DNA from: Xylanimonas protaetiae
GTDB lineage: Bacteria > Actinomycetota > Actinomycetes > Actinomycetales > Cellulomonadaceae
DNA length: 64,000 nt
Reading direction: 5' to 3'
Assembly: GCF_004135385.1 (NCBI RefSeq)
Contig: NZ_CP035493.1
Location: forward strand, 744,001-808,000
Part shown: positions 15,266 to 43,068 of the stretch, piece after piece
How the letters are laid out: each line of letters begins with the position of its first letter
Numbering within the stretch: the first letter of the stretch is position 1
Program-made: the position numbers and the translations under genes
The notes under the pieces: generated by a model
Told to the model about the DNA's origin: nothing
Databases searched by the model: none
What the model saw: the letters and a program-made list of their open reading frames with translations, nothing else

Positions 15266-15326
15266 TTTCGCCGTCGTACTTTCTTGCGTTCTGGCGCCCA
15301 GAACGCAAGAAAGTACGACGGCGAAA
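15266..15326. repeat. palindromic element, copy 1
   Basis: Perfect 29-bp inverted repeat (15266-15294 with 15298-15326) around a 3-nt loop CGC. It fills most of the 94-nt spacer between the metallopeptidase stop and the tilS start. The arm runs TTTCGCCGTCGTAC, then TTTC, then TTGCGTTCTGG. It belongs to the same family as 33591-33657 and 43002-43068. No U-tract follows on either strand. Confidence 0.9.
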
Positions 15327-15336
15327 GGGGGGTGGG

Positions 15337-16716
15337 TCAGCCGTGGACGCGGCGGACCCAGGCGCGCGCGTCCGCGATCTCGCGCGCCGTCGGCAGCGTG
15401 TCCGGGGACGTCCAGACCGCGTTGAGGCCGTCGCGGCCCACCTGCCGCTCGACGTCGCGGACGAACGCCGCCCCGTCGCGGTACTGGGCGAGCTTGGCGT
15501 CCATGCCCAGGAGGCGGCGCAGGACGACGTCGAGGCCCGGCGCGCCCTCGCCGTCGCGCCGCTTCTCGAACCGCTGGCGGATCTGCCGCACGGTGCGCAC
15601 GACGCGCGGGCCGACGGCGTCCATCATCACGTCGGCGTGGCCTTCGAGGAGGGCCATGACGGCGGTGACCTGGGCGAGGTCGTCCTTCTGCCCGGGCGTG
15701 AGCAGGCGCTCGAACGGGGCCGCGCTGCCGGGCTTGAACGCGCCCGTGACGACGTCGGCGACCGTGCGCCCGGCCGTCGCGAGCTTCTCGTGGAGGGGTG
15801 CCTTGGCCAGGCCGACGGCCGTGCGCGTCATGTCCTCGAGCAGCCCGCCGACGCGGCCTCGCAGGTGCTCGGCCAGCCAGGGCGCGGCGGCGAACTGGAG
15901 CGCGTGCGTCTGCTCGTGCAGGCAGACCCACAGACGGAAGTCGCGCGGGTTCACGCCCATGGTGCGCTCGGCGTGCAGGACGTTCGGGGCGACCAGCAGG
16001 AGGCGGCCGGGGGCGGCGGCGCCCGCCACCGCGGGGCGTCGCACGTGCGCTGAGGCGGGACCGGGCTCGCCTGCCACGGACAGTCCCGGTTCGCCGTCTG
16101 CGGACAGGTCGGGCCCGCCTGTCGCGGACGGGCCGGGCTCGCCTGCCATGGACGGGCCGGGCGCGCCCGCCGCGGACGGGCCCGCGGCCTCGGCGTCGGC
16201 GGACAGCCGTGCGTACGGGTCGAACTGGCCGAGGACGCGCGGGGCGAGCAGCGCGAGCAGCGCGCCGATCTCGAGCGCGCCGCCCAGTCGCGCGGCCTGC
16301 GACGTCGGCATGTCGGCCTCGTCGAGCGCCGCGGCGACGGGGTCCGTCATCGCGGCCATGACCTGCGTGTTGGCGAGCGCCCATGTCGCCCGGTCGACGA
16401 CGTGGACCGAGCCGAGCGTCGCGGCGCCGTCGCGCGGGCCGCCCGCGACGCGGCGGACTCCCCCCGCGGGTGTCATGCGGGTGGTGGCCAGCACGTGGTC
16501 GACGGCGTCGGACGCGGCGTCGCGCAGGCCGCCCACGAGCTCGGCGAGCTCGGCGCGGGTGGCGCGCGGACCGGGCGGGGCCACGCGGGCGGCGAGCTCG
16601 GCGGCCGCGGACCAGTCCACGACTCCCGGGGCGCCCGCGGGGCGGGGCGCGGAGGCGCCCGGGGTGGGGGCGGGCCGCGGGTCGGTGGTCACCGGCCCAC
16701 CGTAGCCGTCCCTCAC
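15337..16716 (-). CDS. zinc-dependent metallopeptidase (DUF2342, zincin-like)
   Basis: A 459-residue member of the actinobacterial zinc-dependent metalloprotease family found between dacB and tilS. The zinc motif is [19 protein letters not shown], and the family's C-terminal [16 protein letters not shown] is present. It lacks a signal peptide. Residues about 175-222 are an 8-residue repeat of the type G(E/A)PGPS(M/A)A, five or six copies, an insertion matching a degenerate 24-bp repeat at about 16055-16190. The start GTG 16716 overlaps the dacB stop as GTGA; GTG 16692 is an alternative. The substrate is unknown. Confidence 0.85.
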
Positions 16717-18124
16717 GCCCCGGCGCCGAGCGCGGCGAGCTGCCCGACGAACCGGTCGAAGATCATGCGGGCGCCGACGGTCGCGCCCGGCTCGACGGCG
16801 TCGGCCGCGAGCGAGAAGACGAGCAGGCGGTCGTCGGATGTCACGACCGTGCCGGACAGGCCGACGATGCTGGGCAGCGAGCCGGTCTTGGCGCGCACGA
16901 ACCCGCGCGCCGGGTTGTCGCCCCCGAAGCGGGACTCGAGCGTGCCGGACAGCGCGCCGACGGGCAGGTCGACCATGACGTCGCGCAGCTGCGGGTGCGC
17001 GGGGTCGGTGGTCAGGAGCAGCACGTCGGCGAGCTGGTGGGGCGTGAGCAGCGAGCCGCGGCCCAGCCCGGAGAGGTCGACGAGCGTCGCCCCGTGCAGG
17101 TCGACGCCGAGGCCCCGACGACGGAGAGCACGGCCTGCACGGCGCCCTCGCCCGACCCGGGCCGCCCGGTGTCGAGGGCGACGAGCCGGCCGAGCACCTC
17201 GGTGATCGTGTTGTCGGAGTGCTGCATCGCCCAGCCGGAGACGTCGCGGAGCGGGGCCGAGCTCACGCTGCCCACCACGCGCGCGCCGTCGTCCGCCTTG
17301 CCGCGTGCGACGTCGCCCGTCACGGTGACGCCCTGCTCCGCGAGCGCGCGGGCGAAGGTCTGCGCGGCGGCCAGCGCCGGGTCGGCGGCGCGCGGCCCCC
17401 ACGAGCCGGCACCGAGCATGGCGACGTCGACCGCCATCGACGCGACCGGTGCGACGAACCCCATCTCGGCCTCGACGGGCGGCACGGCGGGCGCGACGGC
17501 CGGGCCGGTGAACAGCGCGTCGTCGAAGGACAGCCGCACGGTGGTCCGGCCCGTGACGTGCAGGGCGGCGGCCACCTGCTGGGCGAGGTCGCCGAGCCCG
17601 GCGCGGCCGTTGACGGCCTGCGGGTCGCCCGCCCCGGCGGCGAGCAGCATGTCGCCGCCGCCGACGAGCACGAGCCGGTCGCCGTCGAGCAGCGCCCGGG
17701 TGTCGAGCGTGGCGTCCGGGTCGAGCTGCGTGAGCGCGGCGACGGCGGTGAGCACCTTCTGCGTCGACGCCGGGGCGAACGCGACGTCCGAGGCGTTCTC
17801 CCCGAGGGTCTGCCCCGTGGTGGCGTCGACGACGACGGCCCCGACCCGCGGGCCGAGCCGCGTGTCGTCGGCGAGCGCCCGGACGAGCGGCGCGACCTCC
17901 TCGGCCGACGGCTGGGGCGCCTCGGGGGCGAGCGGCGGCAGGACGGCGGCGGGCGCGGGTCCGGGGACGGCGCCGGGCGCCGTCGGGAACGGGGCGGGCT
18001 CGGGGTGCGGCGGGGCGAGCGTGAGCATGCCGGGCACGACGTCGTGAGCGTCGGCGACGAGATAACCGCCCAGCAGCGCGACGACCGCGAGGGTCGTGGC
18101 CCCGGCGCGCAGCCGCCACCCCAT
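16713..18124 (-). CDS. dacB: D-alanyl-D-alanine carboxypeptidase/endopeptidase (S13), one-base frameshift
   Basis: About 470 residues when repaired. An exported penicillin-binding protein that trims peptidoglycan stem peptides. An N-terminal TM/signal segment ([17 protein letters not shown], residues 7-24) is followed by a Pro-rich linker. Catalytic motifs are SxxK in [11 protein letters not shown], SxN in [12 protein letters not shown] and KTG in [12 protein letters not shown]. The first frame ends in nonsense after SVVGAS, and the second carries [20 protein letters not shown]. One base added to the run 17113-17116 (four C on the plus strand) joins them and reaches TGA 16713. KTG lies after the break, so as written the gene would be inactive. 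It is divergent from ppa. Confidence 0.9.
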
Positions 18125-18301
18125 GTGCGTCTCCTCACCGTGCTCCGTCGCGCGTGCGCGCCTGCCTCCTCAAGGGTCGGCCACGCCGCAGTGCCCTTGC
18201 CGCATCCTGGCACGTCGGGCGCGTCGTCCGGGCGTCCCCGATGCCCCTGGGGTGCATGGCAGACTTGTCCTCGCGTACGCACCCCCGCATCAGGAGGAAC
18301 T

Positions 18302-18796
18302 GTGGAGTTCGACGTCACGATCGAGATCCCGAAGGGACAGCGGAACAAGTACGAGGTCGACCACGAGTCTGGTCGCATCCGTCTGGACCGCATGCTCTTC
18401 ACGTCGACCCGCTACCCGGACGACTACGGATTCATCGAAGGCACCCTCGGCGAGGACGGCGACCCGCTCGACGCCATGGTGCTGCTCGAGGAGCCGACCT
18501 TCCCCGGCTGCCTGATCAAGTGCCGCGCGCTGGGCATGTTCCGCATGCGCGACGAGGCCGGCGGCGACGACAAGGTGCTGTGCGTGCCGCTGGGCGACCA
18601 GCGCGCCGCGTGGCGCCAGGACATCGACGACGTCTCGGACTTCCACCGCCTGGAGATCCAGCACTTCTTCGAGGTCTACAAGGACCTCGAGCCGGGCAAG
18701 TCGGTCGAGGGCGCCCACTGGGTGGGCCGCGCCGAGGCCGAGGCCGAGATCGAGCGCTCGTTCGAGCGCGCGCGCAACGCCGGCTACCACCACTGA
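18302..18796 (+). CDS. ppa: inorganic pyrophosphatase
   Basis: A 164-residue family I soluble pyrophosphatase, hydrolysing PPi to drive biosynthesis. It has the signature [20 protein letters not shown] with the metal-binding aspartates, and [16 protein letters not shown] at the N-terminus. The start is GTG 18302 behind a strong AGGAGG Shine-Dalgarno sequence. It is monocistronic: divergent from dacB and followed by a hairpin terminator. Confidence 0.97.
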
Positions 18797-18800
18797 TCGC

Positions 18801-18845
18801 CGACGACGACGGCGCCGCGCCACGGGTGCGGCGCCGTCGTCGTCG
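18801..18845 (+). terminator. hairpin terminator of ppa
   Basis: 18-bp inverted repeat (18801-18818 with 18828-18845) with a 9-nt loop, 4 nt after the ppa stop. It lies upstream of the dehydrogenase start. Confidence 0.75.
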
Positions 18846-18869
18846 TCCCGCCGGGATAGCGTGAGCGGC

Positions 18870-19931
18870 ATGCTTGCTGCCGTCATCCATGGGGCGCGCG
18901 ACGTGCGCGCCGAAGAGCGTCCCGAGCCCGCGATCCTCACCCCCGACGACGCCGTGGTCCGCGTCGTCGCCGCCTGCGTGTGCGGGTCCGACCTGTGGCC
19001 CTACCGCGGGGTGACCCCCACGAACGCACCCCACCCGATCGGTCACGAGATGGTCGGCGTCGTCGAGCTGCTCGGCGCGGACGTGACCTCGGCGCGCGTA
19101 GGCGACCTCGTCGTCGTCCCGTTCTCCCTGAGCTGCGGCACGTGCCAGGCCTGCCGCAACGGGTACCCGGCCGCGTGCGACCAGGTCACGTTCTTCGGCT
19201 CGACGGACCGCCAGGGCCACCCCGTCGACGGTGCCCAGGGCGAGAAGGTGCGCATCCCGCTCGCGCAGCACTCCCTGTTCCCGGTGGGGCTGAGCGAGGA
19301 GGAGGCCGAGGCCCGTGGGCTCGTCCCCCACCTGCTCGCGCTCGCCGACGTCATGTCGACGGGCCTGCACGCGGCGACGGCCGCGACCGTCGGTCCCGAC
19401 GACGTCGTCGCCGTCGTCGGCGACGGGGCCGTGGGCCTGTCCGGCGTCATCGCCGCCCGCCTGCTGGGCGCACAGCGCGTCATCGCGATGAGCCGCCACG
19501 CCGACCGCACGGCGCTGGCCCGGAAGCTCGGCGCCACCGACGTCGTCGCCGAGCGCGGCGACGCCGCCCCGGACGCGATCCGCGCCCTGCTGGGCGGCGA
19601 CCTCGCGGACGTCGCGCTCGAGTGCGTGGGCACCGAGGAGTCGATGGCCCAGGCCATGGCGGTGGTGCGCGGCGGCGGGCGCATCGGGTTCGTGGGCGTC
19701 CCCAACGGCGGCTCGCAGCTGCCCATCCGCACGGTGTTCAGCCGCAACCTCACCGTCGGCGGCGGCATGGCCTCGGCCCGCCGCTACATGGAGGAGCTGC
19801 TCCCCCGCGTGCTCGACGGCACGATCACGCCCGGCGACGTCTTCGACCTCACGCTGCCGCTCGCCGAGATCGCCGAGGCGTACGCCGCGATGGACGAGCG
19901 CCGCGCCACCAAGGTGCTGGTGCGTCCGTGA
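18870..19931 (+). CDS. zinc-dependent alcohol dehydrogenase family protein
   Basis: A 353-residue medium-chain dehydrogenase (MDR). The catalytic zinc site is Cys in CVCGSDLWPYRG plus GHEMVGVVE. The structural zinc lobe is SCGTCQACRNGYPAACDQV and the NAD(P) fold is VVAVVGDGAVGLSGVIAARLLGA. The natural substrate cannot be read from the sequence. I took ATG 18870; GTG 18861, three codons earlier, is possible. Its stop overlaps the next gene as GTGA, so the dehydrogenase and LLM enzyme are coupled and may share a pathway. Confidence 0.88.
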   Translation: MLAAVIHGARDVRAEERPEPAILTPDDAVVRVVAACVCGSDLWPYRGVTPTNAPHPIGHEMVGVVELLGADVTSARVGDLVVVPFSLSCGTCQACRNGYPAACDQVTFFGSTDRQGHPVDGAQGEKVRIPLAQHSLFPVGLSEEEAEARGLVPHLLALADVMSTGLHAATAATVGPDDVVAVVGDGAVGLSGVIAARLLGAQRVIAMSRHADRTALARKLGATDVVAERGDAAPDAIRALLGGDLADVALECVGTEESMAQAMAVVRGGGRIGFVGVPNGGSQLPIRTVFSRNLTVGGGMASARRYMEELLPRVLDGTITPGDVFDLTLPLAEIAEAYAAMDERRATKVLVRP

Positions 19932-20806
19932 AGCTCTCGCTCTGGCCCAGCTCCACCTTTCCCGTCGCCGACATCCTCGCGGAGGCCCGCGCGGCCGACG
20001 CCGACGGCTGGCACGGCGTCTGGCTCGCCGACCACTACATGCCCAGCACGGGCGACCTGACCCGGGCCGACGGGCCGATGCACGAGGTGTGGGGCCTGCT
20101 GCCCGCGGTCGCCGCGGTGACGTCGCGGGTGCGGGTGGGCACGCTCGTCAGCCCGACGACGATCCACCACCCCGCGCTGCTGGCCAAGCGCGCCTCCGCC
20201 GTGGACCACGTGAGCGACGGGCGCATGGTGCTCGGGCTCGGCGCCGGCTGGCAGGTCAACGAGCACGCCGCCTACGGGTTCGAGCTGCCCGGCCCGAAGG
20301 TGCTCGTCGACCGGTTCGACGAGGCGCTGCGCATCACGCGCTCGATGCTCGACGAGCGCCGCACGACGTTCCAGGGCACGTACTTCCAGGTCGACGACGC
20401 GCCCGCCGACCCGCACCCGGTCCAGGAACGCCTGCCGATCCTCGTGGGTGCGAAGGGGCCGCGCATGCTGCGGCTCACCGCCCGGTTCGCGCAGGAGTGG
20501 AACACGTGGGGCCTGCCGGAGTCGGCGGGCGCCGTGCGTCGCCAGCTCCTCGAGGCGGCCGAGCAGGTGGGCCGCACCGCACCCCTGTGGACGACGACGA
20601 ACTGGATGCTCGACCTCGACGGCGAGACGCCGATGCCCGGCCGCGTCGCCATGGGCTCACTGACCGCGCTGCAGGACCTCGCGGGGGCGTGGGCCGAGCA
20701 GGGCTTCGACGAGTTCGTCCTGCCCACGTGGAACCTGGGCGCGACGACGGCCGAGCGGCAGGACCGCGCGGCGCAGCTCAAGGCGGAGGTGTTCGACCGG
20801 CTGTAG
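19928..20806 (+). CDS. LLM-class flavin/F420-dependent oxidoreductase
   Basis: A 292-residue luciferase-like monooxygenase fold (TIM barrel). It starts KLSLWPSSTFPVADILAEAR and has GVWLADHYMP, VRVGTLVSPTTIHHPALLAK, DGRMVLGLGAGW and RLPILVGAKGPRMLRL, typical of actinobacterial F420-dependent members. cofD and cofC at 33.7-35.2 kb show this genome makes F420; use of F420 rather than FMN is an inference. The start is GTG 19928, overlapping the dehydrogenase stop. Confidence 0.85.
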   Translation: MKLSLWPSSTFPVADILAEARAADADGWHGVWLADHYMPSTGDLTRADGPMHEVWGLLPAVAAVTSRVRVGTLVSPTTIHHPALLAKRASAVDHVSDGRMVLGLGAGWQVNEHAAYGFELPGPKVLVDRFDEALRITRSMLDERRTTFQGTYFQVDDAPADPHPVQERLPILVGAKGPRMLRLTARFAQEWNTWGLPESAGAVRRQLLEAAEQVGRTAPLWTTTNWMLDLDGETPMPGRVAMGSLTALQDLAGAWAEQGFDEFVLPTWNLGATTAERQDRAAQLKAEVFDRL

Positions 20807-20812
20807 GCCCGG

Positions 20813-22170
20813 TCAGGGGCGGCCCGCGTACGGCATGAGGTCCGCGTCCCACCGGACCGCGACCTCGCGGACCGCGACGCCCGGCCGCGGCGCCTCGATC
20901 ATCCGGCCGTTGCCGGTGTACATCGCGACGTGCCGGATCTGCGACGCGTCGCCCGGGACGTCGGTCCAGAAGATCAGGTCGCCGGGCCGCATGGCGGCGT
21001 AGGCGACCTTCGCGACCGTCGTGTACTGCGAGCGCGACGAGCGCGAGATGCTCACGCCCTGCGCGTGCCAGGCGGCGGCCGTCAGGCCCGAGCAGTCCCA
21101 GCCAGGGTTGCCGTTGCCACCCCACTGGTACATGACGCCCAGCTGCGTGCGGGCCCACTCGACCGCGCGCTGCCCTGGGCGGCGGTGCCGTGGCTCGTGC
21201 CCGTCGTGGGCGGGGGCGTCGGGGGCGTCGGGGTCGGGGTGGGCGTCGGCGCCGGGGTCGGGGTGGACGTCCCCGGGGGCGTCGGGGTGGGAGTCGGGGT
21301 CGGCGCGGGCGTCGTCGGGTGCGGCGCCGGGGTGCTGGGCGCCGGCGTGCTGGGCGTCGGCGGGTGCGGCGTGCTCGGCCCCGGCGGGGGTGCCACGGGC
21401 GGGTTCTCCCGGTCATGCCGCGCGGCCTCCTCGGCCTGCCGCTGCCGCTCGGCGTCGCGCGCGTCCTGCCGCTGCCGCTCGAGCCGGACGCTCCTGTTGT
21501 TGAGCTCCGCGAGGCGCTGGATGAGGCCCTCGCGCTCCACCTCGGCGGCGGCCGTGCGCGCCTCGAGCGCGCTGTAGGCCTGCTCGGCGACGGCGAGCGC
21601 GCGCTCCGCGTCGACCTTCGCGTCGGCGAGCGCGGCCGCGGCGGCCTCCCAGCGGGCGCCGGACGTGGCCGCGGCGGCGCGCGCGTCGGCGAACGCGGCC
21701 AGGCTGGTGGCCACACGCCGGTCGACGGCGCGGCGCGCCGAGCCCTCCGCGACGACGTCGCTGACGCTCCCCGCCCCCGTCACCACGGACAGCGTGCCGA
21801 ACCCGTCGCGGCGCGCCTCGATGCGGTACGCCTCCGCGAGCAGGTTCCGCGCGGCCCGCTCCGCGGCGCCCGCGGCGTCGGCGGCCGAGCGGGCGTCGTC
21901 GGCCTCCTGGGTGGCGACGTCGAGGCGTTCGAGGGCCTCGCTGTAGTCCGCGCCGGCGGTCTGGAGGGCGCGTTCGCCCGCGGCGAGCTCGTCCCGGAGC
22001 TGGTCGAGGCGCCCCTCGGCCCCGGCGACGTCGAGCGCCGCGGCGGCCGCGGCGTCGTGCGCGGCGGCGACGTCGTCGTCGGTGGGCGGGGCGCCGAGGG
22101 CGACCTGGCCCCCGCACGCGACGGCACCCGCGACGGCGAGGGCGATGACGCCTCGTCGCGCTCTGCGCAC
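20813..22170 (-). CDS. exported NlpC/P60 peptidoglycan hydrolase with coiled coil, one-base frameshift
   Basis: About 452 residues when repaired, RipA-like. A signal peptide (RRGVIALAVAGAVACGGQVA) is followed by about 200 residues of Ala/Glu-rich coiled coil with the usual AEAYRIEARRDGFGTLSVV stretch. A Thr/Pro-rich linker of about 75 residues comes next, then the C-terminal NlpC/P60 domain: Cys in GWDCSGLTAAAWHAQG and His in QIRHVAMYTGN. The domain frame starts at WARTQLGVMYQWGG, out of frame with the rest. One base added in the run 21173-21175 (CCC, plus strand) gives AAQGQRAVEWARTQLG and joins both parts. It probably cleaves D-Glu-mDAP bonds during division. The start is GTG 22170. Confidence 0.88.
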
Positions 22171-23926: not shown

Positions 23927-23997
23927 GCGTGAGACGCTGTCCGTCCACCTCGGCGGGTCACGCACCCCTGGCCGAGCCCCGATCCCCGAGGAACCCC

Positions 23998-25741: not shown

Positions 25742-25770
25742 CCCGCGCCCGACGACCTCACCCCACGACC

Positions 25771-26609: not shown

Positions 26610-27977
26610 ATGGCCACCCTGCCCGTCCGGCTCGACCGCGCCGCACCCGTGGCGCTCGGCACGCAGCTCGCCGGGCAGGTCCGCGCGCTGATCCTCGGCG
26701 GCACCCTCGCCCGCGGCGACCGCCTGCCGAGCAGCCGCGCGCTCGCCGCCGACCTGGGCGTGAGCCGGTCCGTGACCGAGCAGGCCTTCGAGCAGCTGCA
26801 CGCCGAGGGCTGGATCGAGGCGCGGCGCGGGTCCGGAACGTTCGTCGCCCCGACGGCCGCGCCGGCGCCGGCCGCGCCCGTCCCGCCGCGCACGCCGGCA
26901 CCTCCCGCGCTCGTGCCGCTCGGCACGGGCGTCCCGTGGATCGACCCGCGGCACGCGGCCGGCTGGCGGCGCGCCTGGCGGGAGGTCTCCGCGGCGCGGC
27001 CGCCGCGCGGGTACGCCGACCCGCGCGGCATCCCCGAGCTGCGCGCCGCCCTGGCCGACCGGCTCGCCCGCACGCGCGGCCTCGTCGTCGACCCCGACGA
27101 GATCCTGCTGACCCAGGGCACCACCGACGGGTTCCGCCAGCTCCTCCAGGTGCTGCGGCCAGGCCCGGTCGCCGTGGAGGACCCCGGGTACCGCGCGGCC
27201 GTCCTGGCCGTCCAGCACCTGGGCCGCGAGGTGCGCGACCTGCCGGCCCTCGAGCCCGTCACCGACCTGGACGGCGTCGTCGCGGCCTACGTGACGCCCG
27301 CGCACCAGCACCCGCTCGGCCGGGTCATGCCCGCGGCCGACCGGTTCGCGCTCCTCGCGGCGGCGCACGCGGCGGACGCCGTCGTCGTCGAGGACGACTA
27401 CGACTCGGAGTTCCGCTACGACGTCGCCCCCGTGCCCGCCCTCGCCGCGCTCGACCGGCACCGCGTCGCGTACCTCGGGACGGCGTCGAAGGCCGTCGCG
27501 CCGTCGCTGCGGCTCGGCTGGCTCGTGCCGCCGCCCGCGCTCCTGGAGCGACTCCACGCGCACCGCCGCGTCACGCACGACGGCGCCTCGTGGCCGGCCC
27601 AGCGCGCGCTGCTCGCGCTGCTGCGCGACGGGTACGTCGACAAGGTGGTCCGCTCCGCGCGGCGCGTCTACGCGGAGCGGGCGCCGCGCGTCGCGGCCGC
27701 GCTCGCGCCGTACGCGCAGCAGGCGGGGCCGCTCGCGGGCATGTACTCGGCCTGGCTCCTGCCGCACGACGACGCCGTCCGGGCCGTCGACGCGGCGCGC
27801 GCGGCCGGCTACCGGGTGTCGCTGCTGACGGAGTACACGCGCACCTCGCGCGCGACGGGCCTGGTGGTGGGCTTCGGCGGCGTCACGGACGCCGAGCTGG
27901 ACGGCGCGCTGGCGGCGCTGGTTCGCGGGCTGACCGGCAGCTCGTCGTCAGGCCGTGCGCCCGAGGGCACGGCCTGA
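26610..27977 (+). CDS. MocR/PdxR-type transcriptional regulator (GntR HTH + aminotransferase domain)
   Basis: A 455-residue protein: an N-terminal GntR winged helix (residues about 10-75; LPSSRALAADLGVSRSVTEQ and ARRGSGTFV) is joined by an Ala/Pro linker to a fold-type I aminotransferase domain. That domain has LTQGTTDGFRQLLQVL, VEDDYDSEFRYD and the PLP lysine in YLGTASKAVAPSLRLGW. Family members sense PLP and control vitamin B6 or related genes. I chose ATG 26610, at the start of homology. Its last codons lie within a 27-bp inverted repeat. Confidence 0.9.
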   Translation: MATLPVRLDRAAPVALGTQLAGQVRALILGGTLARGDRLPSSRALAADLGVSRSVTEQAFEQLHAEGWIEARRGSGTFVAPTAAPAPAAPVPPRTPAPPALVPLGTGVPWIDPRHAAGWRRAWREVSAARPPRGYADPRGIPELRAALADRLARTRGLVVDPDEILLTQGTTDGFRQLLQVLRPGPVAVEDPGYRAAVLAVQHLGREVRDLPALEPVTDLDGVVAAYVTPAHQHPLGRVMPAADRFALLAAAHAADAVVVEDDYDSEFRYDVAPVPALAALDRHRVAYLGTASKAVAPSLRLGWLVPPPALLERLHAHRRVTHDGASWPAQRALLALLRDGYVDKVVRSARRVYAERAPRVAAALAPYAQQAGPLAGMYSAWLLPHDDAVRAVDAARAAGYRVSLLTEYTRTSRATGLVVGFGGVTDAELDGALAALVRGLTGSSSSGRAPEGTA

Positions 27978-27993
27978 CGACGAGCTGCCGGTC
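27932..27993 (+). terminator. 27-bp perfect hairpin spanning the mocR stop
   Basis: 27932-27958 pairs perfectly with 27967-27993 around an 8-nt loop. The left arm encodes the last residues of the regulator (TGSSSSGRA) and the stop lies in the right arm. Terminator is the likeliest role; the overlap with coding sequence is unusual. Confidence 0.6.
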
Positions 27994-29014: not shown

Positions 29015-29137
29015 GCGCGCACGCTACCGCCCACCGGGGCGCGGGCGGGGCCGGGTGAGGCGGGGCCGGGCCGGGCAGGCCGGGCCGAGTGAAGCGGGCC
29101 GGGCCCGGCCCGGCTGGGCGGGCGGGCGGGCGGAGGT

Positions 29138-29209
29138 GATCGGAACGTGTGGTTCGGATCGGAACGTGCATCGCACGCCACGTTCCGATCCGCAACGCAC
29201 GTTGCGATC
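29138..29209. promoter_or_regulatory. symmetric array of four 12-mers (nested dyad)
   Basis: GATCGGAACGTG occurs at 29138-29149 and 29157-29168. Its reverse complement occurs at 29179-29190, and with one change (CACGTTGCGATC) at 29198-29209. Spacing within each half is 19 bp, and the whole has two-fold symmetry about 29173/29174. It lies 54 nt before the quinone oxidoreductase ATG. A multi-site operator is the simplest reading. Confidence 0.6.
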
Positions 29210-29262
29210 GGGTTCCGCCGTCCGACGACGTCGGCCGCCGTTCCCCGCGCTACCTTGGCGGC

Positions 29263-33255: not shown

Positions 33256-33576
33256 TTACGAGCGCCCCTCGTCGACCGCCTCGTCGGCCAGGATCGCCTC
33301 GACGCGGGACACCTTGGCGTCCAGCTGCCCCGTGAACCCGGGGCGGATGTCGGCCTTGAGCACGAGCGAGACGCGGTGCCCGCCGATGCCCACGGCCTCG
33401 GTCGCCTTCTTGATGACGGGCATGACCTCGTCCCACTCCCCCTCGATCTCGGTGAACATCGAGGAGGTGCGGTTGGGCAGCCCGGACTCGCGCACGATGC
33501 GCACGGCCTCGGCGACCTGCGGGGCGACGGACTCGCCCGCGCCGAGCGGGGCGACGGAGAAAGCGAAGACGGCCAT
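33256..33576 (-). CDS. MTH1187/YkoF-type thiamine-binding family protein
   Basis: A 106-residue ferredoxin-like-fold protein of the MTH1187 family. It opens MAVFAFSVAPLGAGESVAP and continues AVRIVRESGLPNRTSSMFTE and EVMPVIKKATEAVG. Family structures bind thiamine or related ligands; a physiological role is not settled. The start is ATG 33576. It is divergent from cofD and separated from it by 111 nt, of which 67 are palindrome copy 2. Confidence 0.88.
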   Translation of the reverse strand: MAVFAFSVAPLGAGESVAPQVAEAVRIVRESGLPNRTSSMFTEIEGEWDEVMPVIKKATEAVGIGGHRVSLVLKADIRPGFTGQLDAKVSRVEAILADEAVDEGRS

Positions 33577-33590
33577 GCGCCCATCCTGCC

Positions 33591-33657
33591 CCCTTTCGAC
33601 GTCGTACCTGGTTGCGTTCTGGGGCTCAGAACGCAACCAGGTACGACGTCGAAAGGG
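33591..33657. repeat. palindromic element, copy 2
   Basis: Perfect 31-bp inverted repeat (33591-33621 with 33627-33657) around GGGCT. The arm runs CCCTTTCGACGTCGTAC, CTGG, TTGCGTTCTG. It lies between two divergent genes, 14 nt from one start codon, so it must fall in or beside both promoters. That location rules out a general terminator role for the family. Confidence 0.92.
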
Positions 33658-33687
33658 AGGGGGCTCCCGGCGCGTAGGCTCGACGAC

Positions 33688-34611
33688 GTGACCTCTCCTC
33701 GTGTGACCGTGCTGGCCGGTGGTGTCGGAGGGGCGCGGCTCGCGCACGGGTTCGCGCTCGCCGGGGTGCCGCTGGACGTCGTCGTCAACGTCGGCGACGA
33801 CACCGAGCTGCACGGCCTGTGGATCTCCCCCGACCTCGACACGGTGCTCTACACGCTCGCGGGGCTCAACGACGAGGAGCGCGGCTGGGGCCTGCGCGGC
33901 GAGTCGTACGCGACGCTCGCGCAGCTCGCGGTGCTGGGCGAGGACACGTGGTTCACGCTCGGCGACAAAGACCTGGCCACGCACGTCGCACGCACGGCCC
34001 GCCTGCGCGCCGGCCTGCCGCTGAGCGCGGTGACCGCGCAGCTCGCGGCCTCCCTCGGCGTCACCGCCCGGCTGCTGCCCGTCACGGACGACCCGGTCGC
34101 CACGGTGCTCGACACCCCGTCCGGGCGCCTGGCGTTCCAGGAGTACTTCGTGCGCCGGCACCACGCCGACGCCGTCCTGGGCATCACCTACGAGGGCATC
34201 GACGCCGCACGCCCCGCGCCCGGCGTGCTCGACGCCGTCGGCGGCGCCGACGTGCTCGTGCTCGCTCCGTCGAACCCGTTCCTGTCGCTGCTGCCCGTGC
34301 TCGGGGTCGCCGGGGTGCGCGACGCCGTCGAGCGGACGTCGGCGCGGCGCGTCGCCGTCAGCCCCATCGTGGGCGGCCAGGCGATCAAGGGCCCCGCCGC
34401 GCAGATCCTCGAGACGCTCGGCCACGACGTCTCCGCGCTGGGCGTCGCCCGCCTGTACACGGGCCTCGTGGACGTCATGGTGATCGACGACGCCGACGCC
34501 GCGCTGGCCCCCGCGATCGAGGACCTCGGCTTCGACGTCGTCGTCACCGACACGGTCATGGGCGGCCCGGACGGCCGCGAGCGCCTCGCCCGCGAGCTCC
34601 TGGCGGTATGA
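33688..34611 (+). CDS. cofD: 2-phospho-L-lactate transferase (CofD/FbiA)
   Basis: A 307-residue enzyme of coenzyme F420 synthesis, joining the activated phospho-(enolpyruvyl/lactyl) group to the deazaflavin Fo. Motifs are VLAGGVGGARLAHGFAL, VNVGDDTELHGLWISPDLDT, RHHADAVLGITYEGID and APSNPFLSLLPVLGV. The start is GTG 33688. Its stop overlaps cofC as ATGA. cofE/fbiB and fbiC are not in this window. In actinobacteria the activated donor is probably PEP-derived (known from mycobacteria). Confidence 0.94.
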   Translation: MTSPRVTVLAGGVGGARLAHGFALAGVPLDVVVNVGDDTELHGLWISPDLDTVLYTLAGLNDEERGWGLRGESYATLAQLAVLGEDTWFTLGDKDLATHVARTARLRAGLPLSAVTAQLAASLGVTARLLPVTDDPVATVLDTPSGRLAFQEYFVRRHHADAVLGITYEGIDAARPAPGVLDAVGGADVLVLAPSNPFLSLLPVLGVAGVRDAVERTSARRVAVSPIVGGQAIKGPAAQILETLGHDVSALGVARLYTGLVDVMVIDDADAALAPAIEDLGFDVVVTDTVMGGPDGRERLARELLAV

Positions 34612-35228: not shown

Positions 35229-35343
35229 CCGCACGACGCGCGGCGGCAGCACGACGCGCGGCGGCAGCGCCGCACCCGGTGGCCGGGACCGGCGCCCGCG
35301 AGGATCGTGGTGCGGGTACGCACACACCCTCTGGGAGACGGTC

Positions 35344-35769: not shown

Positions 35770-35794
35770 CGGCCCCGGGGCCGCCCGTCCCCTG

Positions 35795-36433
35795 CTACCA
35801 GGCGCCCCGGTGCAGCACCGACTCCAGCGGGCGGCGGGCCCGGCGCGCCGGCGAGCCCGCCGCGCCCCGCGCCGGCTCGTCCGGGTGGCCCACCGCGACG
35901 ACGCCCGTCGGCTCCCACTCCGCCGGCACGCCGAACGCCGCGTGGAACGCCGGGCGCTCCGGACCGCCGATGCCGAAGAAGCACGCTCCCAGGCCCAGGT
36001 CCACCGCCGTCTGGAGCATGAGCAGCGACGCCATGCCCACGTCGACGTGCCAGTACGGCACGGGCCACCTCGCCTGGTCCTCGGGCGTGAACGCGCCCGG
36101 CGTGACGAGCCGGGCGCCCGCCTTGTCGCGCTCGGCGTAGCGGCGCAGGTAGGCGTCGCGCGACGCCATGGGCACCACGAGCAGCGGTGCCCGCCGCAGC
36201 CCCGCCTTCCACCGGGTCATGTCCCGTTCCGACGACGCCGGCGTCGCCGCCGCCCAGAAGCGCTCGCGGTCCGCCGCGGACTCCAGCACGAGGAACGCCC
36301 ACCCCTGCGTGAACCCGGCCGACGGCCCGCGCACGGCGTTGCCGAGCACGCGCTCCACCTGCTCGGGCGTCAGCGGCTCGTCGGTGAAGGACCGCACCAT
36401 GCGGCGGCGGCGGACGACGTCCTGGAACTCCAT
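35795..36433 (-). CDS. nitroreductase-family protein
   Basis: A 212-residue FMN-dependent nitroreductase fold: MEFQDVVRRRRMVRSFTDEP, GPSAGFTQGWAFLVLE and VDVGMASLLMLQTAVDLGLG with CFFGIGG. Similar domains form the C-terminal half of FbiB in F420 synthesis. The nearness to cofDC makes a link possible, but nitroreductases are common and no gamma-ligase domain is present. It is convergent with the VOC gene. Confidence 0.85.
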   Translation of the reverse strand: MEFQDVVRRRRMVRSFTDEPLTPEQVERVLGNAVRGPSAGFTQGWAFLVLESAADRERFWAAATPASSERDMTRWKAGLRRAPLLVVPMASRDAYLRRYAERDKAGARLVTPGAFTPEDQARWPVPYWHVDVGMASLLMLQTAVDLGLGACFFGIGGPERPAFHAAFGVPAEWEPTGVVAVGHPDEPARGAAGSPARRARRPLESVLHRGAW

Positions 36434-36473
36434 GCCGCCATCGTCGCGTGCGGCGTGGACGCGCTCAAGCGCG

Positions 36474-37424
36474 TCAGCGGGGGCCGGTGACGGGGGGTGC
36501 CGGCACCACGGGCCGGCGCAGCGCCTCCGTGACGACGCCGAACCCGAGGGACTCGTACAGGCCGCGCGCCACGACGTTGTGCCCGAACACGCTCAGGCCC
36601 AGCACGTCGACCCCCCGCTGCCGGCACCAGCCCGCGCCCGCGAGCATCGCCGCCCGGCCGAGCCCGCGCCCGCGCGCCGGCGGCGTGAGCCACACGTCGT
36701 ACACGAACGCGGCCGACGGCGGTCGCAGCCCCAGCCACAGCGCACCGACGTCGGCGCCCGTCGCGGTCTCGACGACGTCGAGCAGCACCTGGCCGGGCGT
36801 CGCGAGGCCCTGCGGCAGCAGCTCGTCGTAGTCGGCGCGCGAGCGGTCGAGCGCGTCGTCCCACCGCAGGGCGTCGACGCGCCGGATCTCGCGCGCGTAC
36901 TCGTCGATCGCGGCGGCCAGGTAGGCCTCGAAGGAGCGCTGCGTCATCGGGCGCAGCGTGACGCCGGGGGCGGCGTGCGACGGCTCCGCGGTGAGGTCGA
37001 GCGCCATCGTCTGGCTCACGACGGCGAAGCCGTCCGCGGCCGCGAGCGCCGCCGTCGCCGGGGCGGCGACCATGCGGTCGAGCACGAGCTGGCGGGCGTC
37101 GGCCGAGCGGGCGTGGGTCTCGAGCAGCGTGAGCAGCTCGTCGGCGGGGGCGTCGGTGTCGGCGTCGAGGAGCAGCAGGTCCTGGTCCTGGCGCGAGAGC
37201 CACAGCCAGCCGGCCTCGCCGTGGTCGCCGAGCACGCGGAGCAGGTAGGTGCCCGTCAGGCCGTCCTCGGGGGCGAGCTCCGCGACGGCGGTGCGCGCCT
37301 GCGCGGCGGCGGCCGCGGCGTCGGCCCACAGCGGGCCGAACTGCCAGCGTCGCCGGCGCTCCACCTGGGCCGTACGCCAGGCGGCGTAGTCGGCCGCGGG
37401 GAACGGCAGCAGCTGGAGGGTCAC
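36474..37424 (-). CDS. GNAT-family N-acetyltransferase
   Basis: A 316-residue protein. The C-terminal GNAT domain (about residues 155-300) has VYDVWLTPPARGRGLGRAAM (acetyl-CoA loop) and FGHNVVARGLYESLGFGVVT. The N-terminal half is also GNAT-like but degenerate (RVLGDHGEAGWLWLSRQDQD). The acceptor is unknown. The start is GTG 37424. Confidence 0.84.
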   Translation of the reverse strand: MTLQLLPFPAADYAAWRTAQVERRRRWQFGPLWADAAAAAAQARTAVAELAPEDGLTGTYLLRVLGDHGEAGWLWLSRQDQDLLLLDADTDAPADELLTLLETHARSADARQLVLDRMVAAPATAALAAADGFAVVSQTMALDLTAEPSHAAPGVTLRPMTQRSFEAYLAAAIDEYAREIRRVDALRWDDALDRSRADYDELLPQGLATPGQVLLDVVETATGADVGALWLGLRPPSAAFVYDVWLTPPARGRGLGRAAMLAGAGWCRQRGVDVLGLSVFGHNVVARGLYESLGFGVVTEALRRPVVPAPPVTGPR

Positions 37425-37492
37425 GCCCGGCAGCCTAGGGGGAGACTGGCCGTTGCCCGAAATTCACCCGAAAGAGACCTTGACGGCATTCG

Positions 37493-40400
37493 TCAGAGTC
37501 TCTCGGCGATGATCTCGACGAGCGCCTTGCCCTCGACGCCCGCGAGCTGCACCGCCTGGGTGCGGCAGGAGAACCCGTCGGCGAGGTACTCGGTGCCCTC
37601 CTCCGCGGAGCGCAGCGCGGGCAGCAGCGCGTTCTCCGCGACGGCGACCGAGACGTCGTAGTGACCCTTCTGCATGCCGAAGTTGCCCGCGAGGCCGCAG
37701 CAGCCGGCCAGCACCTCGAGCTGGGCGCCGGCGGAGCGCAGCAGGTTCTCGTCGGCCTGGTAGCCCATGACGGAATGGTGGTGGCAGTGCGGCTGGACGA
37801 CGGCCTTGAGGTCGGAGAGGTCCGGGACCTGCCAGTCCTTCGGCGCGGTCGCGGGCTCGGTGAGCAGCTCGGCGAGCGTGCGCGTCGCGGCCGCGACGGC
37901 CGCGGCGCGCGGGTCGTCGGGGAAGAGGTCGAGCAGGTCGGAGCGCAGGACGGCGGTGCACGACGGCTCGAGGCCCATGATGGGGATGCCGTTGACGGCG
38001 TACGGCCCCAGCACCTTCAGCAGGTTGTCGAGACGGCGGCGGGCGCCGTCGAGCTGGCCCGTGGAGATCCACGTCAGGCCGCAGCACGCCTCCTCGTCGG
38101 GCACGATCACGTCGTAGCCGGCGGCCTGGAGCACCTTCACAGCGGCCTGCGGGACGGACGGCGCGAGGGCGTCGCTGAACGAGTCGGTCCACAGGACCAC
38201 CTTCGGGCGGCCCTGCGGCGCCACGGGGTGCCCGGGCGTCGCGCCGAGGGCGACGCCCGGCACGCCGTGCGTCGCGCCGCCGCTCTTCCACCACGTGTGG
38301 AAGGGCACCTCGGCGAACGTCATCATCTCGCGGCGCGGGTCCATGCCACCGAGCCACAGCACCGTCTTGGCGATCCAGCGCACGCCGAGCAGCGCGTTGA
38401 CCGGGCGGGCCAGCGGGCCGCCCACGAGGCGCGTCCAGCGCGGCAGCCAGCCCAGCACGTAGTGGTCGACGGGGCGCAGCTTGCCCTTGTAGGTGCGGTG
38501 CAGCACCTCGGACTTGAACTGGGCCATGTCGACGCCGGCCGGGCAGTCGGCGCTGCACGCCTTGCACGACAGGCACAGGTCGAGGGACTCGCGCACCGCG
38601 GGGGCGTTGAGGCCGCCGACCAGGGTGCCGTTGACGGCGTCCTGCAGCACGCGGGCGCGGCCGCGCGTCACGTCCTTCTCGTCCTTGGTGGCCTGGTAGC
38701 TCGGGCACATGAAGCCGCCCGACGCGTGGTTGTCCGCGCGGCACTTGCCGACGCCGACGCAGCGGTGCACGGCCTGCGTGAGGTCGTGGTGGTCGTGGCC
38801 GAACGAGAACCCGGCGTGGCCCGCCTTCTTCTCGATGCCGCGCAGCCTGCCGCCCTCGCGGGCGCCGCCGTCGCGCGGGTCGATCGGGAGCGTTGAGCGC
38901 ACCGGCCGGGCCGCCGGGCGGCGCAGGTTCGCGTCCACGGCGGCCGGGCGCACGACGACGCCCGGGTTGAGCACGTCCTGCGGGTCGAACAGCGCCTTGA
39001 ACCTCTCGAGCAGCGCGATCGCCTCGGGGCTGTACATGAGCGGCAGCAGCTCCGAACGGGCGCGGCCGTCGCCGTGCTCGCCGGACAGCGAGCCGCCGTA
39101 GCGGGCCACGAGCTCGGCGGCCTCGGTCATGAAGGTGCGCAGCACCGACCCCGACGCCTCGAGCGGGATGTCGATGCGCAGGTGCACGCACCCGTCGCCG
39201 AAGTGCCCGTAGGGCAGGCCGTCGACGCCGTAGCGCTCCATGAGGGCGTCGAGGTCACGCAGGTACGCGCCGAGCCTCGCGGGCGGCACGGCGGAGTCCT
39301 CCCAGCCCGGCCACGCCTGTTCACCCCCCGGACTCCCTTGCTTCGCTGCGGGAGTCCGCGGGGACCCCGAGCTCGCTGTGCCTTCTGGCGCCGCCTCCGG
39401 CGGCCGCGGGGGGTGCGCCCGGCGAGGCCCGCGCCGTCGGCGCGGATCTGCCACATCTTGGTGGCCTCGGGGCCGGCCGGGTGGATCTGGGAGGCGACGG
39501 CGCTGGACGCCGCGACGACGGCCTCCGCGTTGGCCAGCGCCTCCTCCTGCGTGGCCCCGGCGACCTCGATCATGAGCCAGCCCGCCCCCTCGGGCAGCGG
39601 CGGCACGGCGTCGGCCCCGCGGGCCTTGCGCACGACGTCGACGAGGCGGGCGTCGAGGCCCTCGATCGCCAGGGCGGTGCCGCGGCCGAACCCGGTGCCG
39701 CCCTCGGACGCCCCGACGGCCAGCAGCGGGGGCACGTCGTCGGCCGCCGACGGCATGTCGGTGTACCCGAGCACCACGAGCGTCGGCTTCTGGGGCAGCG
39801 GCACGAGCCGGAGGGTCGCCTCGAGCACCGTGACGCACGTGCCCTCGGTGCCCACGAGCGCCTTGGCGAGGTCGGAGCCGTTCTCCGGCAGCAGGTGCTC
39901 GAGCGAGTAGCCGGACACCTGGCGGCCGAACCGCCCGAACTCGGTGCGGATGAGCGCGAGGTTCTCGCGCACCAGCTCCTTGAGGCCGGGGACGGCCGCG
40001 AAGTCCGCGTCGCCCGCGCCGGCGGTGAAGCGGCGCCCGCGCCCGTCGACGACGTCGAGGCTCACCACGTTGTCCGCGGTGCGCCCGTACGCGACGGCGT
40101 GCGGGCCGCACGCGTTGTTGCCGATCATGCCGCCGAGCGTCGCCCGGTTCTGCGTCGACGGGTCGGGCCCGAACCGCAGCCCGTGCGGCGCCGCGGCCGC
40201 CTGGAGCGTGGACATGACGGTGCCGGGCTGCACGACGGCGGTGGCGTTCTCGGCGTCGACCGACACGACCTGGTTCAGGTGCCGCGACAGGTCGACGACG
40301 GCACCCGGCCCGACGGCGTTGCCCGCCACGCTGGTGCCCGCGCCGCGCGCGGTGACGGGCACCCTGAGCTCGCGCAGCACCTCCAGGGCACCGACGAGCT

Positions 40401-40644
40401 CGTCCTGCGTGCGCGGCATGACGACGACGTCGGGCACGACACGGTAGTTGGACGCGTCGGTGGAGTACTCGGCGCGGCGACGGGCGCCGGACTCGACGCT
40501 GCCGGCGACGACGACGGTGCGCAGCGCCGTGGCGACGGCGGCGCGGGCGGCGGCCGCGGCGCGCTCCGCCTCGGCCGCGACGCTCGCGCCCGGCGCGGGC
40601 GCCACAGGGGTCGGGTTCTCGGTCGAGGCGGTCGGTCCAGGCAC
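37493..40644 (-). CDS. FAD-binding and (4Fe-4S) dehydrogenase (YdiJ/D-2-hydroxyacid type), one-base frameshift
   Basis: About 1050 residues when repaired. The N-terminal PCMH FAD domain has TARGAGTSVAGNAVGPGAVV and GGMIGNNACGPHAVAYGRT. The C-terminal FAD-oxidase domain has YGHFGDGCVHLRIDIPLEAS and SGEHGDGRARSELLP. Two 4Fe-4S motifs (CVGVGKC and CLSCKACSADCPAGVDM) follow, and CCG-type domains include CCGLAGNFGMQKGHYD. The family oxidises D-lactate or D-2-hydroxyglutarate. Inside the FAD part, a stem-loop-bearing insert of about 30 codons (39318-39413) interrupts GRTP and AWPGWED. Its run 39408-39413 (six G) lacks one base. Adding it gives a continuous frame. The start is GTG 40644. Confidence 0.88.
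39329..39358. repeat. stem-loop inside the FAD dehydrogenase insert
   Basis: 9-bp perfect stem (39329-39337 with 39350-39358) and a 12-nt loop within an insertion that family relatives are not expected to have. The local peptide is low complexity ([18 protein letters not shown]), unlike the rest of the protein. Confidence 0.6.
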
Positions 40645-40718
40645 CCGCCGATTCTTGCATCACGGGCCGCGCGGGGACGCTAGGTGACCGCCGCGGTCCG
40701 CAACCGCGCCCGCCCGGG

Positions 40719-40752
40719 CCCGTCGTCCTGGGCGGCGACCCAGGACGACGGG
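40719..40752 (-). terminator. hairpin terminator of the OsmC gene
   Basis: 14-bp perfect stem CCCGTCGTCCTGGG (40719-40732) with its complement at 40739-40752, 6-nt loop, 17 nt past the osmC stop. Confidence 0.75.
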
Positions 40753-40768
40753 GCCGGTGCGTTCCGGC

Positions 40769-41212
40769 TCAGCCCTCGAACGTCACGTCCAGCGTGACGT
40801 CGCCGACGCCCGCGAGCGCCTTCGACACCGGGCAGTTCTTCTTGGCGCTCTCCGCGGCGGCCGTGAAGCCGGCCTCGTCGAGACCCGCGGCGTAGCCCAC
40901 GACCTTGAGCGTGATGCGCGGGATGCGGAAGCCGCCCGCCGGGTCCGGCCCGAGCGTGACGTCGGCCGTGACCTCGACCTGCTCCGGCGTACCGCCCGCG
41001 GCGGCGATCTCGGCGGAGAACTGCATGGCGAAGCACGCCGAGTGGGCGGCCGCGATGAGCTCCTCCGGGCTGGTGACGCCCTCGGCGTCGTCGGCGGCAC
41101 GACGCGGGAACGAGACGTCGAACGTCGCCGCGCCCGAGCTGGTGAGCTCCACCTGGCCGGAGCCCTGCTCGAGCGTGCCGTTCCAGGCGGTGCGTGCGGT
41201 GCGGATGGGCAT
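40769..41212 (-). CDS. osmC: OsmC-family peroxiredoxin
   Basis: A 147-residue thiol peroxidase reducing organic hydroperoxides. It starts MPIRTARTAWNGTLEQGSGQ. The two reactive cysteines lie in AAHSACFAMQFSAEIA and SAKKNCPVSKALAGV. Length and order are typical for OsmC/Ohr, closer to OsmC. The start is ATG 41212. It is a single gene with its own terminator. Confidence 0.92.
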   Translation of the reverse strand: MPIRTARTAWNGTLEQGSGQVELTSSGAATFDVSFPRRAADDAEGVTSPEELIAAAHSACFAMQFSAEIAAAGGTPEQVEVTADVTLGPDPAGGFRIPRITLKVVGYAAGLDEAGFTAAAESAKKNCPVSKALAGVGDVTLDVTFEG

Positions 41213-41282
41213 TGCGTGCTCCTTCGTGACCAGGGAGGGGTGGCGCCGTGGCGGCACCACCCCGAACCTAGCGCGCGCGTCC

Positions 41283-42907
41283 CTACCGCGGGGCGAAGTC
41301 GAGAGCGTCGTCGGTCACGGCGATCACGGACCACGTGGTGCCGTCGGCGTCGGTGAGCTCGTAGGCGGGCACGAAGAGCACCGCGCCCGACGTCGTCCAG
41401 TGCTGGGTGAGCGCCAGGCGGGCGCCGGTGATCGTCACCTCGGTGACGGGCCAGGCGATGCGGTCGGCCGCGGACGGCGGGGTGGGCACCGACGCGGGCG
41501 CGGCGGGCAGCACCTCCCGCGGCTCCGCCCCCGCCGCGAGGGCCACGGGCGACGACTGCCCGAAGCGCGGGTCGCCGAGCCGGCGTACGGCCTCGTCCGG
41601 GCTGACGACGTCGTAGCTGCCCAGGTCGACCACCGGCGCGAGCGTGCCGTTCATCCAGACGATGCCGGCGTCGGCGACGGTCGCGCCCCAGGTGTCGTTC
41701 GTCAGCGTGCCGCCGACGACGCGCCGGGCGGTGACCCACCGTGCCGCGTCGTTCCCGTCGCCGAGCGGCGCGACGGTGACCTCGAACTGCGCCGGGTCGA
41801 CGCCGAGGGAGCGCATCGCGTCGCCGAGCGCCGCCGCGGCGGTGGCGTCGTCGACGGACGTCGCGGGCGGCGTCGGGCACGAGCCGTCGGCGGCCTGCTT
41901 GGCGCAGGACCACGGGTCGAGCGCGGAGTTCGAGTACCCGAACGAGGCGCCGCCGTCGGACGTCACGTAGACCTGCGGGCCGGTGCCGTCGGTCGCCCCC
42001 ACCGACCATGTCCCGTCCCGCTCCTGCACCTCGCCCGCGACGCCGAACGCCTGCGCGACGCGGGCGGCGGTGTCCGCGGTGGCGGCGGGCCGGGCGTCGA
42101 ACGCGTAGGCCGGCGCGGTGCCGCCCTGCGTGGAGAGCCCCTGGGCGCGGAAGGTGGTGCGGCCGAAGAAGGGCGACCACGCGGAGTCGTAGGCCGCGGA
42201 GGACCGGGCCGAGTCGGGGCCCGCGGGTGCGGGCTCCTGCACCGCTCCCGTGGCGGTGCCCCCGCCGACCCGGCGCCGCCCGCCGAGTCGTCCCCGGACC
42301 CGCCGATCGTGACGGGCGGCTGCGCGGACCCGGGCGGGGCGAACCCTCCCGCCTCCGAGGCGGCACGGTCCGCGACGCCGAGCGACGAGGAGTCGGCACC
42401 CGCCGACCCGGCCCCGCCGGACAGGCTGCCCAGGGCGTAGCCACCCCCGCCGACGGCGACGACGCCGGCCACCGCCGCGGCGACGAGCAGCCCGCGGCGA
42501 CGACGCCGGAGGGCCTCGCGGCGCGCGGCGAGGTCGACGGCGGGGACGCGCGGGGCACGGGCCGCCGACGACCCGGCCGCGACGTGCGCCAGGGCGTCCG
42601 CCGCGGACCCCAGCGGGGCGCCCGGCAAAGCGTCAGGCAAGACGCCCGCCGCGGCGTCCGGCAAGACGCCCGGCAGGGCATCCGGCAAGGCGTCCGGCGA
42701 GCGGCTCGGCAGGGCATCCGGCAAGGCGTCCGGTGAGACGCTCGCCGTGGACCCCACTCCGGCGTCCGTCCGGGAGCCCGCCGCGACATCCGCCTGGGCG
42801 TCCACCTTCGCCCGCAGCACGCCGAGGCGGGGCTCGACGTCGGCGCCGGGGTCGGCGGCGACGAGGCGGTCGAAGGCCTCGTCGGGGGTTCGCGTGTCGT
42901 CGGTCAT
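41283..42907 (-). CDS. membrane protein, likely partner of the ECF sigma factor; one-base frameshift
   Basis: About 541 residues when repaired. Not recognised by family. The N-terminal cytoplasmic part (MTDDTRTPDEAFDRLVAADP) is followed by Asp-Ala-Leu-Pro repeats (residues about 55-100, from a degenerate repeat at about 42605-42740). One TM helix (RGLLVAAAVAGVVAVGGGGYA, about residues 160-180) and an external domain follow. The layout matches an anti-sigma or sigma-linked membrane protein. The frame breaks in the run 42259-42263 (five C); one added base gives GSAGGTATGAVQEPAPAGPD. The palindrome and sigma gene lie upstream in the same direction. The exterior domain is novel to me. Confidence 0.75.
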
Positions 42908-43001
42908 GACGGCCTCCTCGTCGGTCGCGGGCCGTCGGCCCGCACCCTGCCTGTGTCGCCGGCCCCGCGCGGCTTGCACGCCGTCGCGCCGAGACCCTCC
43001 T

Positions 43002-43068
43002 CCGTTTCGATGTCGTACCTGGTTGCGTTCTGGGGCTCAGAACGCAACCAGGTACGACATCGAAACGG
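43002..43068. repeat. palindromic element, copy 3
   Basis: Perfect 31-bp inverted repeat (43002-43032 with 43038-43068) around GGGCT. With one G-T pair it extends to 42999-43071. The arm runs CCGTTTCGATGTCGTAC, CTGG, TTGCGTTCTG. Compared with copy 2, the C-to-T change at 43011 is matched by a G-to-A change at 43059. It lies between the sigma gene and its downstream membrane-protein gene. Confidence 0.92.

Follow-up and report, generated by a model that had tools for sequence, protein, structure and literature searches.

How did three long palindromes of one family come to stand in three unrelated spacers of a bacterial chromosome, and what keeps their arms complementary when their sequence changes? 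The question arises from a stretch of 64,000 nucleotides of Xylanimonas protaetiae (the window), which covers positions 744001-808000 of a one-contig genome of 3.86 Mb (G000). The first-pass annotation of the window had offered two explanations, namely a small mobile palindromic element, perhaps moved by a distant transposase, or a hairpin kept for an RNA or protein-binding role. The palindrome family is real, and it is larger than was first seen from the window. We see about an even chance that the palindromes are copies of a non-coding DNA element of about 61-67 nt, recognised by a DNA-binding protein or a recombinase. Such an element would resemble the REPINs, which are hairpin-forming doublets of repetitive extragenic palindromic (REP) sequences, and would be independent of RAYT, the REP-associated tyrosine transposase.

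Copy 1 occupies window positions 15266-15326 (genome 759263-759329 when taken as a 67-nt unit) and is formed by 29-bp arms around a 3-nt loop. Copies 2 (window 33591-33657; genome 777591-777657) and 3 (window 43002-43068; genome 787002-787068) each have 31-bp arms and a 5-nt loop; as palindromes, none of the three is assigned a strand. The pairing is perfect throughout, with stems of 29, 31 and 31 bp; when the window (75% G+C) was resampled 20 times with a first-order Markov model, the longest perfect stem per resampling was 10-15 bp. Similarly, six matches to a half-site pattern with up to three mismatches were counted in the window, where shuffles gave 0.10 on average. The coordinates, perfect stems of 29-31 bp and loops of 3-5 nt given in the first-pass annotation were exact on re-reading, as were the four arm positions at which copies 1 and 2 differ. 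Its single arm change between copies 2 and 3 has to be corrected to two compensated positions in the 31-bp arms (alignment columns 3 and 10).

When the half-site was searched for in the whole genome with up to three mismatches, 54 rows were obtained (27 forward and 27 reverse), the reversed control giving 2 and 4. Eight unpaired rows, one with two mismatches and seven with three, were dropped as chance. The other 46 were merged into 25 places, the window's three included; 21 of them have both arms in the match list, and four have one arm there, with the second visible in the sequence. The 25 copies share a layout of two arms of 28-31 bp and a loop of 3-5 nt, and their gap-free alignment of 67 columns reads CCCTTTCGAYGTMGTACYTNSTTGCGTTCTG, 5 nt and then its complement, the degenerate letters being a reading of the alignment. 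Both sides have changed at 12 of the 31 pairs, which adds up to 62 cells; shuffles gave 24.4 on average, and none of 500 reached as high. Paired cells make up 91.7% at the true register, against 36-46% when the partners are slid by 1-3 columns. The unpaired cells cluster at the tip, where one pair is open in as many as 11 of the 25 copies, and at the three outermost pairs.

A covariance model, by which the first-pass annotation had proposed to look for further copies, was built from 32 copies and run at E<=1e-3 against 200 genomes of the family. It matched 38 of them, G000 and Oerskovia flava (G020) included, eight of the 38 by a single row. A second model of 34 sequences, run at E<=1e-4 against 396 genomes of the order, which we take to be the Micrococcales, matched 28, of which seven belong to the same family and 21 to nine other families (eight of the 21 by one row only). 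Both carrier counts are lower bounds, because up to 25 candidates per genome were scored in the family survey and 13 in the order survey. Of 12 matched loci that were looked at, the eight readable ones outside the family all have a long hairpin, and four of the eight have the exact tip CGTTCTG or its complement. The weaker matches in the order may for this reason be hairpins of another kind. In a contig scan with a short pattern, at least 119 stretches were matched, mostly by chance according to a palindrome check, and two loci of O. flava (L069 and L104) were kept as relatives. Across the carriers, the layout is constant and the arm sequence is lineage-specific; the genus g8, for example, has CCGCCGAGCACGACGTTGCTGTCGTTATC with its complement. 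G079, which belongs to this genus, holds at least 35 copies by the model, some hairpins found later having been missed by it. In the 34 aligned copies, all 31 pairs have changed on both sides somewhere (246 cells), a count that leans towards structure because most of the rows had been found with the first model.

Are the copies inherited in place, or do they come and go? In the spacer in front of cofD, where copy 2 stands, a palindrome was found in two of the 13 genomes whose spacer was read, from 21 with a match to cofD, namely G000 and G010, a genome of the same genus, each with its own sequence. For 13 of the 25 sites in G000, both flanks could be matched in G010. At four of these, 500361, 777591 (copy 2), 787002 (copy 3) and 892932, the orthologous spacer holds a palindrome of G010's own sequence, and at nine it holds none. 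None of the five readable G002 spacers orthologous to G000 sites has a palindrome. Within the genus g8, the comparison was between 19 elements in 380 kb of G079 and 18 in 420 kb of G124; they were picked by listed block motifs inside de novo hairpins, because of which degenerate copies are under-sampled. This gave 18 orthologous pairs, one of them with a degenerate G079 palindrome, along with two G079 elements that had no syntenic match and one G124 element that is missing in G079.

At nine of these 18 pairs, the 7-bp middle block was seen to differ on both arms, with a GTTGCTG-like sequence in G079 and an ATGAGGG-like one in G124. The exact ATGAGGG is present on both arms at three of the nine sites and on one arm at two more, the remaining four having variants such as ATGGGTG, ATGAAGG, ATGGGGG and CTGAGGG. 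At one pair at least (685021/3131980), site-specific letters are retained in the tip and the inner stem, and the whole element was therefore not simply swapped there. Among the 396 stem cells of the 18 pairs, 48 have changed on both arms and are still paired, against about five expected from independence and chance pairing; seven more show a one-side change in cells that are unpaired in both genomes. With up to one mismatch, the ATGAGGG half-site occurs 49 times in G141, 46 in G136, 44 in G124, 25 in G094, 23 in G115 and 19 in G171, all six of the genus g8; the other 194 genomes have between 0 and 7 each. Of the new facts, the strongest is this paired change of the two arms at orthologous sites: a copy can keep its place while both arms are altered together. 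Also shown at the level of sequence are dispersed copies, a fixed geometry, a lineage-specific sequence, a presence that varies between species, persistence at orthologous sites between close species and, at many such sites, a block change on both arms.

Such stems could be RNA hairpins at transcript ends, that is, bidirectional terminators or protectors of mRNA ends that lack a U-tract and are selected for pairing, which we regard as rather unlikely. The position of the copies relative to genes speaks on both sides. According to a simple codon-usage gene caller, 24 of the 25 G000 copies lie in spacers (10 convergent, 11 codirectional and three divergent), and 10 of the 11 codirectional ones are closer to the 3' end of the upstream gene (p=0.012). 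Convergent spacers are enriched in G079 (8/20, p=0.008, with a chance motif match at 716120 among the 20) and in G124 (8/18, p=0.004), but not in G010 (3/15). The chance hairpin at 716120 is included also in the counts given below for G-U mismatches, for spacers by distance from dnaA and for offsets of 22 bp. The conservation of sites between G079 and G124 favours a role in transcripts, as do the unrelated long hairpins of the window, which likewise lie at gene ends. However, the copies do not look like intrinsic terminators. No T-run follows the stem, TTTT being absent within 15 nt on all 50 sides of the 25 copies, and the three window spacers have no terminator-like and no sigma-70-consensus site. 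The copies, though they prefer 3' ends, are not confined to them, for besides the three divergent ones the 25th (genome 411738), which was not placed by the gene caller, lies in frame inside a coding sequence and adds a stop-free peptide; the G010 homologue of this gene has a different, shorter linker there. The earlier statement that a terminator cannot explain the divergent copy is thus backed by the genome-wide placement. Further, selection on an RNA stem should favour G-U mismatches, and the mismatches in 40 codirectional copies of four genomes, read in the transcript, were 15 G-U, 21 A-C and 36 others (p=0.41). This lack of a G-U preference means that the symmetry may be kept at the DNA level, whether selection or template-switch correction keeps it; the comparison does not decide the matter, since either mismatch can be accommodated in a long stem. 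A role in transcripts would also leave the sequence shared among the copies, and a half-site at a fixed distance from them, unexplained. The earlier suggestion of a hairpin kept for an RNA role is weakened to this extent, with the preference for gene 3' ends still in its favour.

The half-site just mentioned bears on a second alternative of similarly low probability, in which the palindromes are fixed binding sites of a host chromosome protein for nucleoid occlusion, segregation or condensation, whose shifting specificity drags all the sites along. Outside one arm, at a distance of exactly 22 bp, a further CGANNACG is present in 23 of the 36 elements of G079 and G124; it lies on the left in 11 of them, on the right in 12 and in none on both sides. 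The expectation is 0.19 matches per 70-nt flank, and the right side could not be anchored in two elements. A scan of offsets peaked at 22 bp with z=6.5 in G079, z=6.5 in G124 and z=3.6 in the seven elements of O. flava. A spacing of two helical turns between half-sites hints at a protein that binds DNA in its double-stranded form, and such an arrangement would make the element polar. A phased third half-site of this kind fits chromosomal protein sites, and so does an origin-proximal bias. With dnaA at 1.18 Mb in G000 and 0.33 Mb in G079, the dnaA-proximal half holds 21 of the 25 G000 copies (p=5e-4) and 33 of the 35 model-found G079 copies (p=2e-8). In G079, 53 spacers of 100 kb far from dnaA had no match, against 20 matches (one by chance) in 224 spacers of 380 kb nearer to it (p=0.018). 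But the bias is not significant in G124 (12/18 by the model, 20/35 with listed pattern places), the presence of the palindromes varies between species of one genus, and strict pairing over 28-31 bp would exceed the need of a dimeric operator. Least probable of all, to our mind, is that the palindromes are neutral relics. They would then be dead inverted repeats in which nothing but template-switch (quasipalindrome) correction preserved the symmetry. The correction of imperfect palindromes is established knowledge; it would account for arms that change together, and for tips that are often unpaired when most of the stem is not. Drift, however, would yield neither a similar new block at nine of 18 unlinked sites, nor a fixed length across families, nor a half-site at one exact offset.

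For the reading that we prefer, a REPIN-like DNA element independent of RAYT, the following mechanism may be proposed. A sequence-specific protein would recognise the element in its double-stranded or cruciform state; it would probably be a recombinase or a domesticated transposase and not a Y1/RAYT enzyme. This protein might occasionally insert new copies into spacers. The symmetry of the arms could be kept by repair through the palindrome, one arm copying the other, and the genome-wide shift of the middle block may have come from conversion between copies or from a changed specificity of the protein. A more far-reaching form of this proposal, which we put forward tentatively and with some doubt, is a dispersed palindrome system with species dialects. 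In it, a putative DNA-level machinery would recognise palindromes of fixed length and rewrite the middle block of both arms in place and genome-wide, so that sites are inherited and their sequence is replaced in concert; it would form a RAYT-independent REPIN-like class across the order. Neither ordinary mutation nor ordinary transposition readily explains palindromes that keep their site and have their sequence replaced. If confirmed, they would exemplify concerted evolution in bacteria at the scale of 60-bp elements, and would suggest that many actinobacteria of the order possess an uncharacterised recombinase or DNA-binding protein. Species pairs like G079 and G124 make the question directly testable.

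Several observations weigh against the preferred reading, and one is that no protein that moves or binds the element was found. Y1 transposase (PF01797, E<=1e-5) was detected in two of the 200 genomes (G103 and G216) and in none of the 38 carriers, G000 and G010 having none; the Y1 and carrier surveys are taken to cover the same 200 genomes, the handles agreeing wherever both lists show them. RAYT, not being found in any carrier, was rejected as a candidate for the mover. Genes with DUF222 and HNH domains were also rejected as the partner. They do not track the element, being present in 119 of the 200 genomes but in 16 of the carriers, 38 in number, and absent from the window genome. Thirty DUF222 loci, when scanned, held no palindrome of this family, and one held a motif of a second family to which we return below. 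Similarly, no transposase was found among ten proteins encoded between or near close copies; nine of them match metabolic, transport, regulatory, division or unknown-function (DUF779) families and one matches nothing. The flanks were too diverged to yield a clean empty site at which a target duplication could be read. The symmetry is not strict, because 31 of the 396 stem cells compared between G079 and G124 have changed on one side with the pairing broken, and 10 more have changed on both sides with the pair broken. The preference for gene 3' ends would equally fit a role in transcription. As regards the third half-site, the 23 elements include seven orthologous pairs and amount to only 16 distinct sites, that no element has it on both sides is but mildly unexpected (3.7 such elements expected), and the offset scan gave no peak at 22 bp in the window's own genus (G000 and G010).

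A full-length element ending in these arms, of which the palindromes could be miniature inverted-repeat transposable elements (MITEs derived from an insertion sequence), was also looked for; G000 has no convincing unpaired arm, the eight unpaired rows with 2-3 mismatches being read as chance. The G000 half-site had no exact match in viral contigs. A search of the window against Rfam 15 at the gathering threshold matched only a tRNA and none of the palindromes. No description of the family was found among the papers listed in searches for actinobacterial palindromes, and the text matches to five short motifs, among the matches listed, all look unrelated. The part of the first-pass annotation that spoke of a dispersed palindromic element with no named match is thus supported as far as these searches go, and movement by a distant transposase stays unproven.

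How does the family compare with known repeats? The Rickettsia palindromic elements also include a copy in frame inside a gene, but differ from the present family in size, sequence and phylum. DNA uptake sequences are 10-12 bp motifs that are very high in number and mostly single. The present element, unlike them, is a palindrome of 60-67 nt in tens of copies, and this copy number speaks against membership. There is a likeness in the available text on the Neisseriaceae, where uptake sequences occur in species-level motif dialects and as inverted pairs at gene ends (PMC3630211). The GTAG- and CGTC-tagged REPs are likewise palindromic intergenic DNA repeats, but with units of 20-40 bp, and six actinobacterial name stems occur 0 times in the main text of that report as available (PMC3733652). 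RepRanger counts REPs in Arthrobacter livingstonensis, and from the accessible part of that work an overlap of these with the present family is possible (PMC12306157). The closest likeness is to REPINs, which, in the sections available of Bertels and Rainey (2011; PMC3116915), are inverted REP doublets of fixed length with a hairpin capacity, common compensatory changes and an associated RAYT. Elsewhere, more than 100 copies are given as usual for REPs. The present element shares with these the two inverted half-elements, the hairpin, the fixed length, the compensatory changes, the extragenic position (24 of 25 copies in G000) and the lineage-specific sequence. It differs in that its carriers have no detected Y1/RAYT gene, its copies are in tens and not hundreds (25 in G000), its pairing spans the whole arm, and orthologous sites are kept while both arms change. 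Since all the features of a REPIN are found except for RAYT and the high copy number, we call the family REPIN-like and do not file it as REPIN.

The genes around the three window palindromes are in the settings that the first-pass annotation had described. Copy 1 lies upstream of tilS (14025..15242, minus strand; a PP-loop ATPase with a TilS domain), whose start adjoins it, and on its other side it adjoins the 3' end of a Zincin_2 metallopeptidase gene on the same strand (15337..16716, minus). Copy 2 lies between divergent starts; the start codon of a Thiamine_BP (PF01910) gene (33256..33576, minus) is 14 nt from it, and the start of cofD (33688..34611, plus) is downstream of it. Copy 3, in a same-strand spacer, is just downstream of a gene for a sigma-70 family protein with regions 2 and 4 (43082..43687, minus), the 3' end of which adjoins it. 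The gene after this sigma factor (41283-42907, minus) is apparently split over two frames, 42907-41963 and 42242-41283, both of which have no Pfam match; a frameshift or a sequencing error may perhaps be the reason.

Three other hairpins were noticed in the window, the sequences of which are unrelated to the palindrome family. A perfect 27-bp hairpin with an 8-nt loop stands at a gene end (27932-27993), one with a 20-bp stem lies between convergent genes (58632-58671), and one with a 22-bp stem lies between two minus-strand genes (1959-2010). A divergent spacer (29123-29224) has an imperfect 46-nt inverted repeat with a repeated CGGAACGTG, and may be an operator region. Beyond the window, G079 and G124 have a further class of hairpins like GCCGAACCCGGGGTTG with its complement (for example L375 around 124872 and L387 around 2644552), and another class that carries GAGAGCCCTGGTCG or GTAGAGCCCTGGTCG. 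The second palindromic family mentioned above, GGTGGTTGAGCCTGTCGAAACCACC with its complement, has no member in the window and occurs in G010 (L223-L262) and G002 (L263-L282), with 23 hairpins and 132 motif matches in 800 kb of the former and nine matches in 400 kb of the latter. At the G000 site 731252, the orthologous G010 spacer is occupied by a palindrome of this second family.

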